From positions 186,001 through 250,000 of the forward strand of contig JASBVF010000056.1 of the NCBI GenBank assembly GCA_030147525.1: a stretch of DNA of 64,000 bases, written 5' to 3'. Shown one piece after another: positions 38,286 through 44,888 of the stretch (position 1 is its first letter; each line of letters starts with the position of its first letter). This DNA comes from Bacteroidota bacterium (GTDB lineage Bacteria; Bacteroidota; Bacteroidia; Chitinophagales; Saprospiraceae). Both the position numbers and the translations under genes were made by a program. The notes beneath the pieces are model-generated. The model made no database searches, was not told where the DNA came from, and saw only the letters and a list, made by a program, of their open reading frames with translations.

Positions 38286-38467
38286 ATTTTTCTCATTTTC
38301 TTTATCGAACAGAACTGACTGAGTGGTGTTCAGCAGCCTTCCGAAATTGCGGCGCAAAGTAAACAAAACTGGCAGGATAATGACTGAGCCAATCTCAGGG
38401 GGTCACGTAATTTTTAGACCAAATGAAATGGGATTGCCCACTTGATGGTGATAATTCACTACAAGGC

Positions 38468-38503
38468 AAAAAAAAACCCCCCTCCAAAACGTTCGGAGAG
38501 AGG
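38468..38503 (-). terminator. Rho-independent-type hairpin upstream of terC
   Basis: Read on the minus strand, CCTCTCTCC (38495-38503) pairs with GGAGGGGGG (38477-38485) over nine bp including two G-U pairs, with a 9-nt loop, followed directly by a run of nine T. It is 183 bp before the terC start codon, so it may end a small RNA or act as an attenuator for terC. Confidence 0.7.
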
Positions 38504-38726
38504 CTATCCCAAAAACCGATTACCTCTTTAGGTCAAGTGGGGTGACATTGGTAATACTATACATGCTGTGAAACTAAATTTCACAATACTAAAATCACGT
38601 AATAAAAGCCAAATAAAAAAAGGCCATTACCACATGAATAGTAACATTCGAAAAATGAGTGTACTTGAGTTACATCACCGAACGGTGAATTAAGTCCTTT
38701 GTGAAAATAAGTGTGGGAAGAAAAGC

Positions 38727-38851
38727 GAAAAAAAAAGGACGAGAAGCCTGGAAAATTGGTTTACGAATAAAATCGTACTATAAATCGGTTGTTGGAATAG
38801 GTTACTGAAATCGGCGATGTAATTGATTAGATGTCCATCCGGCTTCTCATC
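38727..38851 (-). ncRNA. Candidate small structured RNA closed by an 11-bp stem and poly-U
   Basis: On the minus strand GATGAGAAGCC (from 38851 down to 38841) pairs with GGCTTCTCGTC (38748 down to 38738) with one G-U pair, and is followed by CC and ten T. The about 92-nt interior contains an internal hairpin TACGA-TTTTAT-TCGTA. A short transcript with a closing stem and U-tail is the general shape of 6S-like or other small RNAs, but I cannot assign it to a family, and a terminator with a large loop is an alternative. Confidence 0.35.
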
Positions 38852-39044
38852 ACGCTTTTGTGTTGAGTAACTTTACTTTCATGTTCAAAGGATATTAATT
38901 CTGTTCTTTCTACTTAAAAATCAGGCCAAAAATAGCCGGTAAAAAGAATTCACCAAAGTATTTATCAAAAAAATAATCATTTATTTTTTCCACAATAAAA
39001 CATCAACTCGTTTTTACGACAAATCGCAGTAGGTACTCCCTAAA

Positions 39045-39086
39045 ACGCAGAACCCCTCCCCGGATAACCGGGAAGAGGTCTTGCGT
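39045..39086. other. Long 19-bp hairpin with ATAA/TTAT tetraloop
   Basis: Arms 39045-39063 and 39068-39086 pair over 19 positions with one A-C mismatch and a few G-U pairs when read on the minus strand, which also gives a short T run (TTTT) after the stem. Its C-rich/G-rich arms (CCCCTCCCCGG, CCGGGAAGAGG) resemble the hairpin at 38468-38503. Terminator, attenuator or structured-RNA part. Confidence 0.6.
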
Positions 39087-39548
39087 GTTCTCAAGGGATT
39101 ACAAATTGCGTCTTTAAAATCATCAGCAGATCTGCCGAATCCAATTATTTATTTCAGCGGTTTCAGAAAAACGGGGTTATCAAATAGGCAACCAATCACC
39201 TGCATTAGAACACTACCTCATTTAACTTGATTCCTGAGTGAACAGGGAGGAAGTCAGCATGGCGAAAGTATGTCGTAAATAACTACGTGGCAAACAAGCT
39301 GTGTTTTGCCTGAAATTATTTACCCAAATATTTAAAACAACTAAATCGGAGGTTGGGAATGTAGTGGTGAAACTGGTTTGAAACTAAAAACTTTGAATCA
39401 GTGTGTGTGGGTAAGGATGAGCAGCGGGAAATAACTAACTGGAAATTTAAAGTTTCACCTTTTTGAAAAATACTGGGTTCAATGAACAACTTCTAAAAGC
39501 GGTCGCAAGGTATGTAAAAAAGATTTATTTTTCAATGAAGGGAGGCCC

Positions 39549-39583
39549 CAGTTTTAAAAAGATCAAAAAAAACTGTTTTTTTT
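39549..39583 (+). terminator. Weak A+T-rich hairpin followed by eight T
   Basis: CAGTTTT (39549-39555) pairs with AAAACTG (39569-39575), followed by T8 at 39576-39583. It is plus-strand oriented and upstream of the cysteine operon promoter, so it may insulate the operon. Confidence 0.4.
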
Positions 39584-39689
39584 CTTTAGAACCTTGCCAA
39601 ATCCTTGCAATGATTAGTAAAACACCAGAGAAATAAACGATGAAAATGCGCACCGAGATCAAAAAAATGAAGCCTGTTTGAATATCAAA

Positions 39690-39721
39690 TTGGCAACAAA
39701 GTATTTGTTTTTATAAATTTG
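39690..39721 (+). promoter_or_regulatory. Promoter of the cysteine operon
   Basis: A -33 TTG (39690-39692) and an exact -7 TAAATTTG (39714-39721) are separated by 21 bp, matching the Bacteroidota TTTG/TAnnTTTG promoter. Transcription would begin near 39727, giving a leader of about 70 nt before the leader-peptide start. Confidence 0.6.
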
Positions 39722-39752
39722 ACATTCAATCATGGCATAAGTTTTGAACTTT

Positions 39753-39770
39753 TGACAATCCGAATTGTCA
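39753..39770 (+). promoter_or_regulatory. Palindrome in the cysteine operon leader
   Basis: TGACAAT-CCGA-ATTGTCA is a perfect 7-bp-arm palindrome. It lies about 26 bp downstream of the inferred transcription start and 26 bp before the leader-peptide ATG. It could be a DNA operator or a small RNA hairpin protecting the leader. Confidence 0.45.
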
Positions 39771-39795
39771 TTCAAACAGATTTCACAAAAGAAAA

Positions 39796-39876
39796 ATGAC
39801 CATACAAATTCATATCGCTGCATGTTGTTGTTGCTGTACCATTCCCTTGCGGAAAGGCGGCGGCGTATTGCATTGA
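39796..39876 (+). CDS. Polycysteine leader peptide (26 residues) of the cysteine operon
   Basis: ATG 39796 to TGA 39874-39876 encodes MTIQIHIAA, then five consecutive Cys (codons 39823-39837: TGT TGT TGT TGC TGT), then TIPLRKGGGVLH. It ends 27 bp before a strong intrinsic terminator hairpin and 89 bp before the cysteine synthase gene. Leader peptides with runs of the end-product amino acid are the sensors in classical attenuation (trp, his, leu). Here ribosome stalling at the Cys run under cysteine shortage would favour the antiterminator formed by 39850-39858 and 39910-39918. A chance run of five Cys codons exactly here is very unlikely. Confidence 0.85.
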   Translation: MTIQIHIAACCCCCTIPLRKGGGVLH

Positions 39877-39918
39877 TATGAATGCAAATACTTGATTGTC
39901 AGCAAAAAAGCCTTTCCG
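39850..39918 (+). promoter_or_regulatory. Antiterminator of the cysteine attenuator
   Basis: CGGAAAGGC (39850-39858), just after the Cys codons, is the exact complement of GCCTTTCCG (39910-39918), the 5' arm of the terminator. The two pairings exclude each other. A nested hairpin (GTATTGCAT 39865-39873 with ATGCAAATAC 39882-39891, one bulge), which contains most of the leader's last codons, sits inside the antiterminator loop. A ribosome reaching the stop codon would melt it, and one stalled at Cys would not. Confidence 0.75.
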
Positions 39919-39940
39919 TTTCGGGAAGGCTTTTTTGTTT
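39904..39940 (+). terminator. Intrinsic terminator of the cysteine attenuator
   Basis: The arms 39904-39918 (AAAAAAGCCTTTCCG) and 39922-39936 (CGGGAAGGCTTTTTT) form 15 bp with one G-U pair and a TTT loop, followed by GTTTTT. It lies between the leader peptide and the first structural gene, 26 bp before its ATG. Confidence 0.93.
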
Positions 39941-39965
39941 TTCACCACCTTGAAAATGTAATCTT

Positions 39966-40907
39966 ATGACTGCGACCTTGCAAATTCAAAGGCTCACTGC
40001 AGAGGAAAAAATCTGGCGGACGGGCAGATTAATCGGGCAAACACCCCTGCACGAAATCAGAAATGTTTTCAAGAAACCAGGCGTCCGGATTTTTGCCAAA
40101 CTTGAATGGCAGCAGCTGGGCGGAAGTGTAAAATCACGGCCTGCTTTTAACATCATAAAAAAAGCCTGGCAGGAAGGAAAACTGGGCAATGGCCAGCATC
40201 TGTTGGATGCGACCTCCGGCAACACCGGCATTGCTTACGCCTCCATTTGCGCAGCACTAAACATCCCGGTCACTTTGTGTTTGCCTGAAAACGCTTCTGA
40301 AGAACGCAAGAGAATTTTGAGGTCGCTCGGCGTGAACATCGTTTTCACCTCTCGTTTCGAAGGTACGGATGGCGCCCAAACTGAAGCTAAAAAAATATAC
40401 CGGGAAAATCCGGGGCATTTCTTTTATGCCGACCAATACGCCAATGTCAACAACTGGAAAGCTCACTACGAGACTACTGCTCCTGAAATATGGCGGCAAA
40501 CCAACGGAAAAATTACCCACTTCGTTGCCGGGCTCGGCACCACCGGCACTTTCACCGGCACCGGCAGAGGGCTTCGGAATTTCAACGCCGCTATCGAGCT
40601 GATAGCCTTACAACCCGACAATCCCATGCATGGCCTGGAAGGCTGGAAACATCTTGAAACCGCTATTGTACCGAAAATCTACGACCAATCAGTGGCTGAC
40701 CATTTCCTGGAAATCGGAACGATCGAAGCATACGAAATGGTAAGGTCCGTAGCGCATCTGGAGGGCATATTGATCAGCCCTTCCGCTGCCGCCAATCTAC
40801 TTGGAGCAATCAAAGTAGCAGAACAGGTTGATAGCGGCGTCATCGTCACAACTTTTGCTGACAACGCCGACAAATATTCAGAGGCGATGGAACATATTTT
40901 TAATTAA
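39966..40907 (+). CDS. cysM: Cysteine synthase, CysM-like (protein-thiocarboxylate-dependent candidate)
   Basis: The 313-residue fold-type II PLP enzyme has the Schiff-base Lys56 in LGGSVKSRPA, the phosphate/substrate loop TSGNTGI (83-89), and the PLP-phosphate loop GLGTTGTFTGTGR (about 187-199). IGQTPLHEI at residues 23-31 is typical of cysteine synthases. Neighbouring genes encode a CysO-like carrier, its activating enzyme and a JAMM protease, the set that serves CysM in Mycobacterium, so the sulfur donor is probably a protein thiocarboxylate and the acceptor possibly O-phosphoserine (inference). It is the first structural gene after the attenuator. Confidence 0.85.
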   Translation: MTATLQIQRLTAEEKIWRTGRLIGQTPLHEIRNVFKKPGVRIFAKLEWQQLGGSVKSRPAFNIIKKAWQEGKLGNGQHLLDATSGNTGIAYASICAALNIPVTLCLPENASEERKRILRSLGVNIVFTSRFEGTDGAQTEAKKIYRENPGHFFYADQYANVNNWKAHYETTAPEIWRQTNGKITHFVAGLGTTGTFTGTGRGLRNFNAAIELIALQPDNPMHGLEGWKHLETAIVPKIYDQSVADHFLEIGTIEAYEMVRSVAHLEGILISPSAAANLLGAIKVAEQVDSGVIVTTFADNADKYSEAMEHIFN

Positions 40908-40921
40908 AAAATACGCAGGTC

Positions 40922-41371
40922 ATGGATTATTTTCAAATAACATTGGATCAAGCCGCCGTTGAAGTTATCAACAGACATGGCGCAGAGGCTTTTCCTTACG
41001 AATGTTGCGGATTTCTTTACGGGCATGAATCTGAAGGCAGGCTCATTACGCTGGCGGTTCCGGCTGTCAACAGCAAGTCTGGCGACCAGCGAAGACGCTT
41101 TGAAATTTCACCCCTGGATTACCTGCGGGCGGAGGAGTTTGCTTTAAAAAATAACACCCAACTGCTCGGCATCTACCACTCACACCCTAATCATCCGGCA
41201 ATTGCTTCAGAACATGACCTTGCTGTAGCGATGCCCTATTTTTCCTACGTCATCGTTTCCGTCAGGGAGGGTGTACCGGTTGATTTGAAAAGTTGGAAAC
41301 TGAAAGAAAATACCAGAGAATTTCAGGAAGAGGAGGTTTTTGTTTTACAAACAACAGAAGCTTCAACCTGA
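40922..41371 (+). CDS. JAMM/M67 metalloprotease (Mec-like)
   Basis: In this 149-residue protein the JAMM zinc motif is complete: Glu27 in FPYECCGFLYG, then HSHP with His86 and His88, Ser96 and Asp99 (HSHPNHPAIASEHD). In Mycobacterium the homologue Mec releases cysteine from the CysO-cysteine adduct after CysM has joined them. In other bacteria related JAMM proteins trim residues that follow the Gly-Gly of sulfur carriers. Both roles are conceivable here because the carrier ends Gly-Gly-Ile. Begins 14 bp after cysM. Confidence 0.88.
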   Translation: MDYFQITLDQAAVEVINRHGAEAFPYECCGFLYGHESEGRLITLAVPAVNSKSGDQRRRFEISPLDYLRAEEFALKNNTQLLGIYHSHPNHPAIASEHDLAVAMPYFSYVIVSVREGVPVDLKSWKLKENTREFQEEEVFVLQTTEAST

Positions 41372-41430
41372 AACTGTCTGAATGAATTGAATTTTCATTT
41401 AAATAAAATCACCATTTAAAAACTTGCATC

Positions 41431-41706
41431 ATGGCTAAAATTATCATCCCAACTCCTTTGCGTAAATTTACCGGAAACGCCGGTGTATTCGAGACCTCCG
41501 GCACCACCGTCCGGGAAGCCATCCAACAGTTGACTGAGACTCACGGCGGCCTCTCACGGCACCTGCTCGACGACAACCATAAAATCCGTTCTTTCATCCG
41601 GGTCTACCTGGGGGAAAATGACATCAACTCATTACAAAAAGACGAAACCGCTGTCGAAAGCGATTCTGTCATCAGCATTGTGCCGGCTATTGCGGGCGGC
41701 ATTTGA
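41431..41706 (+). CDS. MoaD/ThiS-family sulfur carrier protein (CysO-like)
   Basis: The 91-residue ubiquitin-fold protein starts MAKIIIPTPLRKFTGN and has the family's central HKIRSFIRVYLGENDI and C-terminal SDSVISIVPAIAGGI. The mycobacterial carrier ends DGDSVTILPAVAGG, which this matches closely, except that an Ile follows the Gly-Gly here. Thiocarboxylation needs a free terminal Gly, so either the JAMM protease removes Ile or the protein works differently. It lies 59 bp after the protease gene and 47 bp before the activating enzyme. Confidence 0.88.
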   Translation: MAKIIIPTPLRKFTGNAGVFETSGTTVREAIQQLTETHGGLSRHLLDDNHKIRSFIRVYLGENDINSLQKDETAVESDSVISIVPAIAGGI

Positions 41707-41753
41707 CGAACAGACCCGAAAAGCGTTTTAAAAAATTTAATCAATCCTAAATC

Positions 41754-42893
41754 ATGAGTCAGAATATTCAACTCAGCGGCCCCGAAATGGCCCGCTACGC
41801 CCGACACATCGCCATCCCCGAGTTTGGGTTGGAGGGTCAAAAAAAACTGAAAGCCGGCAAAGTGCTCGTCATCGGTTCCGGCGGCTTGGGCAGCCCGGTG
41901 CTGCTCTACCTCGCTGCGGCTGGTGTTGGCACCATCGGAATTGTCGATTTTGACACAGTCGATGAGAGCAACCTCCAGCGCCAGATTCTTTTCAACGTGA
42001 ATGACGTGGGCACATCAAAAGCAGAAACGGCAAAAGAACGGCTACTGGCACTCAATCCACACCTTAATATTACAGTGTACAAAACACGATTCACTCGTGA
42101 GAATGCGCTTGACCTGATTAAAGACTACGATGTAGTCGCAGATGGGACTGATAATTTCCCGACCCGCTACCTCGTCAATGACGCCTGCGTGCTGGCCGGA
42201 AAAGTGAACGTTTACGCTTCCATTTTCCAGTTCGAAGGGCAGGTTTCCGTTTTCAACTACCTGAACGCCGACGGTACCAGAGGCCCGAACTACCGGGACA
42301 TGTTCCCCGAACCACCGCCTCCAGGTCTTGTTCCGAATTGCGCCGAAGGCGGAGTACTCGGCGTGCTGCCGGGCATCATCGGCTCCATGCAGGCGAGCGA
42401 AGTGATCAAAGTTTTGACTGGCGTCGGCGAACCGCTGGCTGGCAGGCTCTTCCTTTTCGATGCGGCAAGTTTCACTACCCGCATTTTAAAAGTTTCAAAA
42501 AATCCGGACACGAAAATCACGGAACTCATCAACTACGAGCAGTTCTGCGGCATCGAACCGGCATCGGACAAACCGGTCAAGGAAATCACCGTGCAGGAAC
42601 TGAACGAACTGATGATCGAAGGTGCTGATTTCCAACTCATTGACGTTCGGGAGCCGCACGAGTACGGCATCGCCAACCTCGACGGCGAACTGATTCCGCT
42701 CGGCACGATCTCTTCGGCGGCCCACCGCATTTCAAAGGAAAAACAAGTGATCGTTCACTGCCGCAGCGGCGTGCGCAGCGCCAAAGCCATTCGGGAACTG
42801 GAAAGTCTTTTCGGTTTTGAAAATCTGTACAACCTGAAAGGCGGCATCCTTGCTTGGTCGAAAGAAATTGACGCAGGCGTACCGCAGTATTAG
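41754..42893 (+). CDS. MoeZ-like E1 adenylyltransferase-rhodanese fusion
   Basis: The 379-residue protein has an N-terminal ThiF/MoeB domain: GSGGLGSPVLLYLAAAG (ATP site, about 39-55), DFDTVDESNLQRQ (about 64-76) and DGTDNFPTRYLVND. NYRDMFPEPPPPG followed by VPNCAEGGVLG is close to mycobacterial MoeZ and lacks the CxxC zinc pairs of MoeB. The C-terminal rhodanese domain (about 285-379) has active-site Cys336 in VHCRSGVRS. In Mycobacterium this enzyme adenylates and sulfurates CysO. As last gene of the operon it should charge the carrier encoded just upstream. A bidirectional inverted repeat follows. Confidence 0.92.
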   Translation: MSQNIQLSGPEMARYARHIAIPEFGLEGQKKLKAGKVLVIGSGGLGSPVLLYLAAAGVGTIGIVDFDTVDESNLQRQILFNVNDVGTSKAETAKERLLALNPHLNITVYKTRFTRENALDLIKDYDVVADGTDNFPTRYLVNDACVLAGKVNVYASIFQFEGQVSVFNYLNADGTRGPNYRDMFPEPPPPGLVPNCAEGGVLGVLPGIIGSMQASEVIKVLTGVGEPLAGRLFLFDAASFTTRILKVSKNPDTKITELINYEQFCGIEPASDKPVKEITVQELNELMIEGADFQLIDVREPHEYGIANLDGELIPLGTISSAAHRISKEKQVIVHCRSGVRSAKAIRELESLFGFENLYNLKGGILAWSKEIDAGVPQY

Positions 42894-42906
42894 AGCGTGA
42901 GAGGGT

Positions 42907-42982
42907 GAGAGGAATGAGAGATTGAGAAGAGCAAGAAGGCTTGACCTCCTTCTCAATCTCTCATTCCTCTCAATCTCTCATT
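42907..42982. repeat. 23-bp inverted repeat plus a short direct repeat between convergent genes
   Basis: The arms 42907-42929 and 42949-42971 are exact complements with a 19-bp loop. The sequence CTCAATCTCTCATT occurs at 42952-42965 and again at 42969-42982. Purine-only and pyrimidine-only phrases (GAGAGGAATGAGAGATTGAG) give it the same style as the other long inverted repeats. It lies between the MoeZ-like gene and the convergent TPR gene and probably terminates both. Confidence 0.9.
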
Positions 42983-44888
42983 TCTTCAAAGACGGGTCCA
43001 GCCGGTAGGCCTTTTCCAGATACGGCCGCCCCTTCTCCTCCTGCCCGGCGTCACGGTAAGCGGAGCCGAGGTAAAAATTGATCGTGGCGTCTTCCGGCCA
43101 GTACTGCTCGGCCTGCGAGAACCATCGGATCGCTTCCTGAAAATTTTTCTGCATGGCGTTCACAGCGCCGAGGTTGCGCAGCGCATCCTTCATCCGGGGA
43201 TCGTACTGCACGGCTTTTTCGTACACTTCCTTCGCCTTTTCAAGGTTGCCCTGCTCGAAGAAAATGATGCCCATGTTGCTGTACACCAGCGGGAAGTTGG
43301 GTTTGTATTTCAGGGCGAGATTGTAATTCTCCATCGCCTTCTCGTAGTTCTTGGCCCGGTAGTAGATCAGGCCCAACTGGCTGTAAGCATCGTGGTATTC
43401 CGGGTAGATGCTGATGGCTTTTTCGAAGCGCTGCTGAGCGAGGTCGTAGTAAGCTTTTTGAGCGGCGGGGTCCGTGGCCTTCAGGCCTTTTTGCACGACT
43501 TCAAGGCCGGAGTGGAAGTTCAGTTTGGCAGCATTTGGCGAAGTCTGAATGTCAGCTTCGTAAAGCGTGTAACTGTCCTTCCAGTCGGCGTTGCGGTCGA
43601 TAGTTTTAAAACTGTAAAATGCGAGGATAACGCCCGCCACCGCCCAGAGGGTTTTATTTTGAAACAAACCACCCGGCACGGCCACTGTCGCTTTTTCATT
43701 TTCTTTAAAAATTTTCATCAAACCCAACGCCAGTGCAAGGGCAAATCCCGGCGAGGCGGAGTACAGCAAACGGTCGCCGTAAGAAGTGCCGATGGTCACG
43801 AGCAGGTTTGTGAAAATGGAAAAATTGATCAGAAAAAACAGGATGGCAAATGCCCACAAGTCCTTCTTTTTCAAACGAATAAGTGCAAAAATACCCATGC
43901 CAACCCAAGCCGCCACCGACGCCAGCACCTGCCAGTCGCCCCAGCCCGTGAGCGGGATTTGATTGTAGCCAAAATCACTGCTCAACTCGTACGGAAAGAT
44001 CAGCGTCCACAGGTATTTACCCAACATCAAAAACGCACTGGCCACGAACGTACCCGTATCCTTCGCTCCCACCAGAAAATTATCCAGTACCGATACGTCG
44101 CCCGGATTCACCAAATCGCCGATCACCAGTTTGCGAACAATAATGAAAAAAATCGCCGGCAAGACGTACAGTCCAGCCGTGGCAGCGATTTTCGGGAGTT
44201 TGCTTTTTGAAAAAAAATACATCGCCAGCGGCACGATCGCCACGAACGTCACGGCATTTTCTTTTGAAAAAAGCGCTACCGTGTATGCCAGCAATGCCAG
44301 CAGCAGGGCGCTCATTTTACCGCTTTCCAGGTGTTTCCAAAGCAAATTCAGCGAAACCAGGCACAGCAAAAACATCACGATTTCGTCCCGGCTTTTAATG
44401 TTGGCGACCACCTCCACATGCACCGGGTGCGCCACAAAAAACAGCGTAGTCAGCAGCGGCAGCAGCAGGTTGTAGTTTTGCATCCAACGGGCCAGCGTTA
44501 AAAAAAGTACGGCACCGCTGAGGCCGTAGAGTAAAATGTTAACGAGGTGGCCCAGCCAGGGCTGATCGGGCGCCAGTTGCCATTCGATGGCGAACATCGT
44601 CATCGGGATGGGCCGGTAGAGTTCGCCGGGGCTGTTCCAATAGCCGTAGCGGGAGTGATGCGACCACAGATCGGGAATGCCTTCGAAACCCCGCATGGTG
44701 ATGAAATTTTCCTTGATCACGGAGAAATCGTCCAGCACATAGTCGTGCCCAAGCGTATTGAGGTAGAGGACGATGCCGAAAGCGGCGATGGCAATGGCGA
44801 GCCAACGCAGGCTATCGGATTGCCTCCCGGCAGTGGAAGGTTTGCGGGAAATAGATTTTTGCTGCTGTTTCGTTTTTTTTGATGCCAT
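42978..44888 (-). CDS. TMTC-like polytopic membrane protein with C-terminal TPR domain
   Basis: The 636-residue protein starts with a basic cytoplasmic stretch (residues 1-25, KKTKQQQKSISRK), followed by about ten membrane helices to residue 430. The loop LGHDYVLDDFSVIKENFIT resembles the first luminal loop of GT-C/DUF1736 glycosyltransferases. Residues about 450-636 contain five TPR units (for example AYSQLGLIYYRAKNYEKAMENYNLAL, VYSNMGIIFFEQGNLEKAKEVYEKAV). The combination matches TMTC-type proteins, in eukaryotes O-mannosyltransferases; in bacteria the substrate is unknown. Confidence 0.8.
   Translation of the reverse strand: MASKKTKQQQKSISRKPSTAGRQSDSLRWLAIAIAAFGIVLYLNTLGHDYVLDDFSVIKENFITMRGFEGIPDLWSHHSRYGYWNSPGELYRPIPMTMFAIEWQLAPDQPWLGHLVNILLYGLSGAVLFLTLARWMQNYNLLLPLLTTLFFVAHPVHVEVVANIKSRDEIVMFLLCLVSLNLLWKHLESGKMSALLLALLAYTVALFSKENAVTFVAIVPLAMYFFSKSKLPKIAATAGLYVLPAIFFIIVRKLVIGDLVNPGDVSVLDNFLVGAKDTGTFVASAFLMLGKYLWTLIFPYELSSDFGYNQIPLTGWGDWQVLASVAAWVGMGIFALIRLKKKDLWAFAILFFLINFSIFTNLLVTIGTSYGDRLLYSASPGFALALALGLMKIFKENEKATVAVPGGLFQNKTLWAVAGVILAFYSFKTIDRNADWKDSYTLYEADIQTSPNAAKLNFHSGLEVVQKGLKATDPAAQKAYYDLAQQRFEKAISIYPEYHDAYSQLGLIYYRAKNYEKAMENYNLALKYKPNFPLVYSNMGIIFFEQGNLEKAKEVYEKAVQYDPRMKDALRNLGAVNAMQKNFQEAIRWFSQAEQYWPEDATINFYLGSAYRDAGQEEKGRPYLEKAYRLDPSLKK

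Follow-up and report, generated by a model that had tools for sequence, protein, structure and literature searches.

A run of cysteine codons in a short open reading frame (ORF) just upstream of genes for cysteine synthesis raises the question of whether the cell uses translation of that ORF to sense its own supply of charged tRNA-Cys. To answer it, we analyzed such a locus within a 64,000-nucleotide stretch of Bacteroidota DNA (referred to below as the window) along with the corresponding loci of related genomes.

The leader ORF and the operon behind it

On the forward strand of the window, an ORF of 26 codons plus a stop extends from an ATG at 39796-39798 to a TGA at 39874-39876 and encodes the peptide MTIQIHIAACCCCCTIPLRKGGGVLH. 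This ORF was read from the sequence and is kept in relatives, and five consecutive Cys codons, TGT TGT TGT TGC TGT, occupy positions 39823-39837. An intrinsic terminator follows on the same strand (39910-39936), with the sequence GCCTTTCCG-TTT-CGGGAAGGC at 39910-39930 (arms at 39910-39918 and 39922-39930) and a TTTTTT tract at 39931-39936, and the ATG of cysM lies 29 nt past this T-tract, at 39966. Both the five-Cys-codon leader peptide and the terminator between it and cysM are thus present as the first-pass annotation had claimed. Within the leader ORF, CGGAAAGGC at 39850-39858 on the same strand (hereafter region 2, the antiterminator strand) is complementary to the terminator 5' arm at 39910-39918. 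In the minimum-energy fold, 39808-39835 pairs with 39856-39883 on the forward strand to form a predicted protector hairpin (1:2, 39808-39883), in which the Cys codons would be paired and region 2 enclosed.

Four genes follow on the forward strand. The first encodes a CysM-like PALP cysteine synthase (39966-40907; PF00291), with E. coli CysM and M. tuberculosis CysM among its solved relatives and a TIGR01138 score of 296 bits, below the cut-off of 394. It is followed by a Mec-like JAB/JAMM protease (40922-41371; PF14464; solved relative 2kcq), a CysO-like ThiS-fold carrier with the C-terminus AGGI (41431-41706; PF02597; solved relatives 4n6e_B and 3dwg_C), and a MoeZ-like ThiF-rhodanese protein (41754-42893; PF00899 and PF00581) whose top NCBIfam scores are to MoeB and MoeZ, both below cut-off. 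Entry 3dwg, which we take to be the M. tuberculosis CysO-CysM complex, also contains a cysteine synthase B chain. Mycobacterial MoeZ has been described as transferring sulfur to CysO (PMC3227635). Given these gene families, the solved relatives and the mycobacterial MoeZ-CysO sulfur transfer, the operon most likely makes cysteine via a carrier-protein route, with a CysM-like enzyme that scores below the NCBIfam cysM cut-off. The earlier claim that the next genes make cysteine is supported by the domain assignments of this cysM-mec-cysO-moeZ-like row.

The CysO-like carriers of the window (41431-41706) and of loci L076-L155 mostly end in PAIAGG plus one to a few residues, giving AGGI in the window and GGC, even GGCCC, elsewhere. 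Because the carriers extend beyond GG, the Mec-like protease may need to trim them prior to use. A strong inverted repeat was also observed at 42897-42981, between the moeZ-like gene and a convergent neighboring gene; it draws many below-cut-off matches to microRNA models in Rfam, and is probably a two-way terminator.

Conservation of the Cys run and of the region upstream

The Cys-codon run by itself is weak evidence and near chance, as four consecutive TGY codons occur 111 times in the 7.08-Mb genome compared to 93 for the reversed pattern, and five occur 17 times compared to 10. Its conservation is not. A one-genome-per-species collection was searched with the window CysM as query, and the best 80 of 111 CysM relatives were inspected for a module, defined as a run of at least three Cys codons within a short ORF (60 codons or fewer) with a terminator behind it. 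Such a module is present at 66 of these 80 loci, 63 having it upstream on the cysM strand and 3, all Fodinibius, on the opposite strand. Two modules in series are found at 19 of the 63 loci, at a spacing of at most 200 nt except in L140. The 14 loci without a module comprise two with too little DNA, one with a run but no start, four with a Cys frame of five to six codons but no passing terminator, and seven with none. Leaders were found in Flexithrix dorotheae (L093), Agaribacillus aureus (L117), Reichenbachiella agariperforans (L118), Puia dinghuensis (L130) and Fodinibius roseus (L123), the last from the phylum Balneolota; there is no leader at the CysM locus of Reichenbachiella versicolor (L119). 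In a second set of 15 related-genome stretches, drawn partly from the same genomes and so counted apart, 13 carry the leader, and one stretch (L075) starts inside cysM. The run, whose absence from relatives the first-pass annotation had named as speaking against its reading, is accordingly conserved in both sets.

Several of these loci depart from the common layout. Fodinibius halophilus and an uncultured Aliifodinibius (L143 and L128) have a Cys frame before cysM with no terminator detected, and in L123, L124 and L133 a CCC leader with a terminator is found on the opposite strand; in L123, the row of putative genes on that strand, read by eye, consists of rhodanese, sulfite reductase, methyltransferase and PAPS reductase. 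The leader of L145 heads a sulfite reductase row that continues into cysM.

As a control, runs of every residue were counted in ATG-started ORFs of at most 60 codons followed by a terminator within the 600 nt upstream of cysM. Runs of at least four were found for Cys at 50 of 79 loci, for Leu at 14 and for Val at 3, with no other residue represented, while the other strand had Gln at 3. At a threshold of at least three, the counts were Cys 55, Leu 20, Val 4, Gly 3, Ala 3, two each for Arg, Pro and Ile, and one each for Ser and His. The Leu, Val and Gln runs can arise from the other frames of (TGY)n or from its complement. Stretches located 2.5, 3.5 and 4.5 kb downstream served as controls and contained runs of at least four in 0 of 67, 0 of 65 and 0 of 57 cases, and runs of three codons amounted to one Ala and one Tyr, both in a single stretch.

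The 63 loci (from the best 80 of 111) together hold 82 leaders. Their Cys runs are three to seven codons long, mix TGT with TGC in 68 of the 82, and are interrupted in 10 with the frame kept; outside the run, the peptides vary widely.

We also examined the promoter region. The first-pass annotation had placed a TAnnTTTG promoter upstream of the leader, and TAAATTTG is indeed present on the forward strand at 39714-39721 (82 nt ahead of the leader ATG). It is not conserved, however: no TAnnTT(T/C)G occurs near that place in 10 close relatives, although three of them carry the motif at a different position (-28 in L078 and L079, -59 in L096). Another box is conserved, namely TGGCATAAGTTTTGAAC at 39733-39749 of the forward strand (TGGCAY-N5-TTGAAC). 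TGGCAY-N5-TTGA is found in 8 of the 10 close relatives and TTGAAY-N15-TTGW in the window and 9 of the 10, and among the 63 loci from the best 80 of 111 CysM relatives, the box occurs at 9 compared to 0.45 expected from shuffles. This box would fit either a sigma-54 promoter, which its -24/-12-like elements resemble, or an operator overlying a housekeeping -33 box. A gene for rpoN was found in 25 of 25 genomes, and the box motif is mildly enriched genome-wide (14 occurrences compared to 5 for the reversed pattern); in L078 and L079, the same TTGAAC has a TAnnTTTG downstream of it, spaced as in a housekeeping promoter. The window also contains an inverted repeat, GACAAT-ccga-ATTGTC (39754-39769), which is located between this conserved box and the start of the leader ORF and is possibly an operator.

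Pairing between the leader and the terminator

The ORF, its Cys codons, the terminator, the complementarity between region 2 and the terminator arm, and the gene context can all be read directly from the DNA, and they very probably constitute a ribosome-mediated transcription attenuator of the trp/his type, located upstream of the cysM operon and sensing charged tRNA-Cys. Leader translation, stalling, the switch to read-through and the response to cysteine would then proceed as follows. When Cys-tRNA is ample, the leader ribosome would pass through the Cys codons, region 2 would be covered or held in the protector pairing (1:2) with the Cys-codon side, the terminator (3:4) would form, and transcription would end before cysM. 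When Cys-tRNA is scarce, the ribosome would stall on the Cys run and disrupt the protector, and region 2, now free, would pair with the terminator 5' arm (2:3), allowing cysM-mec-cysO-moeZ to be transcribed.

For all 82 leaders, the best duplex between the Cys-run-to-terminator stretch and the terminator 5' arm was computed. With their own arms, the mean was -14.6 kcal/mol compared to -10.3 (sd 0.25) with permuted arms, and none of 10000 permutations was as low. The same held for the 45 leaders lacking CCTTTCC (-13.9 vs -9.2, sd 0.35, none as low); these permutation tests treat leaders regardless of their relatedness. The own arm was the very best of the 82 for only 14 leaders and among the best five for 37, because many arms resemble each other, but 81 of the 82 beat the foreign-arm mean, and 66 ranked among the best 10 of 200 shuffles. 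Clear single failures were L113 (rank 131 of 200), the second leader of L138 (66) and L135 (61). For 123 ordinary terminators at the same loci, the median z was 0.05, compared to -3.07 for the leaders, and 16 of the 123 fell within the best 5 of 100, compared to 65 of the 82 leaders. The antiterminator pairing is therefore kept across leaders while the sequence changes. Among the 11 close relatives alone (A1), covariation was not significant, with 104 of 500 shuffles reaching the score and 5 of the 9 pairs being invariant.

The protector pairing is predicted in 74 of the 82 leaders. Pairing of region 2 to the Cys-codon side had a predicted value of 0.47, compared to 0.31 in shuffles, and was higher than in shuffles for 63 of the 82. 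Measured from the last Cys codon, the median distance to region 2 is 13 nt (quartiles 10-16); the end of the leader stop codon lies 30 nt past the run, again as a median. We also folded the window leader with a ribosome masking the RNA as far as 39835, 39839 or 39847. With the RNA ending at 39921, the antiterminator fold was predicted in all three cases, while with the full terminator present, it was the best fold only with masking to 39835, the terminator being best for the other two. As the terminator is the best fold at two of the three ribosome positions, folding order (i.e., kinetics) must decide, as it does in classical attenuators.

These data also bear on other readings of the locus. 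The Cys ORF might control ribosome access to cysM and not termination, as in the translation attenuation attributed to polycysteine ORFs in M. smegmatis (work cited in PMC13236596), and the four loci that have a Cys frame but no passing terminator could operate in this way. Nevertheless, the terminator that stands between leader and operon at 66 of the 80 loci, and the complementarity of region 2 to its arm, make this improbable for the module as a whole. We give still less credence to the idea that the cysteine-rich peptide is itself the product, binding metal or sensing redox state, with the attenuator pairing secondary. Cysteine-rich chains can bind metals, and a peroxiredoxin is among the targets described below, but the peptides diverge outside a run that itself ranges from 3 to 7 residues, and it is the RNA pairing that is kept.

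Even less probable is a poly-Leu leader, in which the run would be read one frame on, (TGY)n being equivalent to (YTG)n. In the Leu frame, 19 of the 82 leaders have a short ORF that begins with ATG (60 codons or fewer), and 7 have one in the Val/Ala frame, compared to a short ATG-started ORF in the Cys frame in 80 of the 82, a figure partly favored by the choice of leaders by their Cys frame; moreover, the 10 interrupted runs stay in the Cys frame, and the genes downstream are those of cysteine synthesis or sulfite reduction. Finally, a chance TGY repeat before an ordinary terminator, for which TGY runs nearly as frequent as their reversed control would speak, is refuted by the conservation, the downstream controls, the pairing tests and the further modules of the same genome, and has virtually no probability left.

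Further leaders and comparison with known systems

To look for other modules in the genome of the window, we read every one of the 17 five-codon hits and a subset of 30 from the 111 four-codon hits, giving 47 loci, some overlapping. A Cys run in a short ATG-started ORF with a strong terminator was found in four modules: that of the window, one on contig C46 and two on contig C16. A further candidate (L208) had a very weak terminator (score 13) and was taken as chance. A covariance model (R1) built from 25 leaders, including that of the window but excluding the other three, was then applied to the genome, with 150 of 3237 first-look candidates scored. It recovered the window module on C54 (1.2e-21), C46 (1.3e-21) and both modules on C16 (1.0e-8 and 8.1e-7), with a shadow match on the opposite strand of C46 ranking between the C46 and C16 matches; the lower matches that were read (L257-L260, L264, L266, L268 and L271) contained no Cys-run leader.

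The two C16 modules lie in series before a sulfite reductase operon (PF01077) whose further genes, putative and assigned by reading without scores, are a uroporphyrinogen methyltransferase, a CysG-like protein and an APS/PAPS reductase. Among six sulfite reductase loci from this genome and its relatives, all have a Cys run, five with a terminator, and four have two modules. Across the phylum, sulfite reductase was matched in 67 of 148 genomes and 30 of those loci were read: a three-Cys run is present with a terminator in two (L169 and L186) and without one in three (L174, L175 and L177), and the other 25 have no Cys run in the 1.5 kb covered before the matched domain. This argues, if weakly, against a phylum-wide rule for sulfite reductase leaders.

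The C46 module lies upstream of a peroxiredoxin gene. The six closest peroxiredoxin genes, this one included (83-100% identity), all have a leader of CCC or longer, with a passing terminator in five; there is no leader at any of eight genes at 65-78% identity, and none with a terminator at eight further loci (L236-L243). A peroxiredoxin-like gene also lies between the Cys leader and cysM in L105, L115, L127 and L149, and a shortened copy in L082. Its occurrence at both positions, inside cysM loci and behind its own leader on C46, suggests a link between peroxide defense and cysteine supply.

Fourteen peroxiredoxin and sulfite reductase leaders, three from the genome of the window and eleven from relatives, were subjected to the same pairing test, with Cys frames L156 and L224 excluded for want of a terminator above the cut-off. 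As a set, they scored -14.6 compared to -11.4, with 0 of 20000 permutations as low, although single leaders are weak, and both modules of L157 were no better than shuffles (60 and 77). In addition, a His-run leader with a terminator, encoding MNFINNHIHHHHFSSPQSGEQLWF, was found in the same genome on contig C9 (52200-52312; L270), followed by putative hisG and hisD genes assigned by reading. Because the genome also has this leader, attenuation is probably in general use there.

Judged from these sequence comparisons, we regard the Cys-run attenuator in Bacteroidota as real, widespread and of a known mechanism type. On balance, we lean modestly toward a Cys-tRNA attenuator regulon in a Bacteroidota-Balneolota group that covers CysO-route cysteine synthesis, sulfite/sulfate reduction and peroxiredoxin, often with two attenuators in series; both terminators on one mRNA would have to be passed, giving a steeper response to Cys-tRNA shortage than one gives. 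If so, these bacteria would sense cysteine directly, with no dedicated regulator protein involved; cysteine synthesis, sulfite reduction and peroxiredoxin would provide a ready read-out, and the CysO-dependent route, best known from Mycobacterium, would be tied to tRNA-Cys charging. Pairs of same-signal attenuators in series would also lend themselves naturally to testing how a response is shaped by stacking switches. Since a comparison of window positions 38300-43100 with Rfam 15 gave no match at the gathering score (Thr_leader reached 24.1 bits vs 55), the 82 leaders could serve as the seed of a new RNA family.

The first-pass annotation had pointed to Cys leaders in mycobacteria as the precedent; these exist, but a Cys attenuator with a terminator had already been proposed outside them, for the uORFC-8-2 motif before cysS in Rhodobacterales (PMC8632094). 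That motif, which has two Cys codons, a terminator and proposed Cys-tRNA attenuation, resembles the present module in its short Cys-codon ORF, its stem holding the codons and its intrinsic terminator. As described there, however, it is limited to two Cys codons, to cysS and to Rhodobacterales (PMC8632094), whereas the leaders described here have runs of 3-7 (10 in L158), precede genes for cysteine synthesis, sulfite reduction or peroxiredoxin, and are often two in series; with five codons and cysM, the window leader lies outside the uORFC-8-2 definition. Cys-run leaders have likewise been predicted before cysteine genes in Actinobacteria, namely Mycobacterium, Propionibacterium acnes and Bifidobacterium longum, with no conserved terminators reported (PMC1262725), in contrast with the terminator and antiterminator found here. 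The terminator also sets the window leader apart from the mycobacterial leaderless ORFs, defined by translation control and no terminator, and for M. smegmatis, work cited in PMC13236596 is reported to show translation attenuation, compared to the transcription attenuation proposed here.

Within the phylum, clues to leader peptides at amino-acid operons have been described for Flavobacterium psychrophilum, suggesting the same mechanism, with no cysteine leader named in the passages considered (PMC9723704), and short ORFs in long 5' regions have been described for B. thetaiotaomicron, again with no cysteine leaders named in the passages considered (PMC7366714). Consistent with the earlier statement that no cysteine attenuator was known from Bacteroidota, none was found among the matches listed in open-licence full text. 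For modules in series, the Salmonella mgtCBR mRNA is reported to carry two leader-ORF attenuators responding to ATP and proline (PMC3641672), unlike the present pairs, in which both runs are Cys.

The module itself combines a product-codon run in a short ORF, a terminator before the first gene and a competing antiterminator strand, along with a predicted protector pairing between the Cys-codon side and region 2. The trp, his and leu attenuators are laid out in the same way, with regulatory codons, a protector, an antiterminator and a terminator; the present module differs from them in amino acid, phylum and targets. At the level of sequence features, it thus falls within the classical definition of an attenuator, of which the doubling in series is a possible variant.
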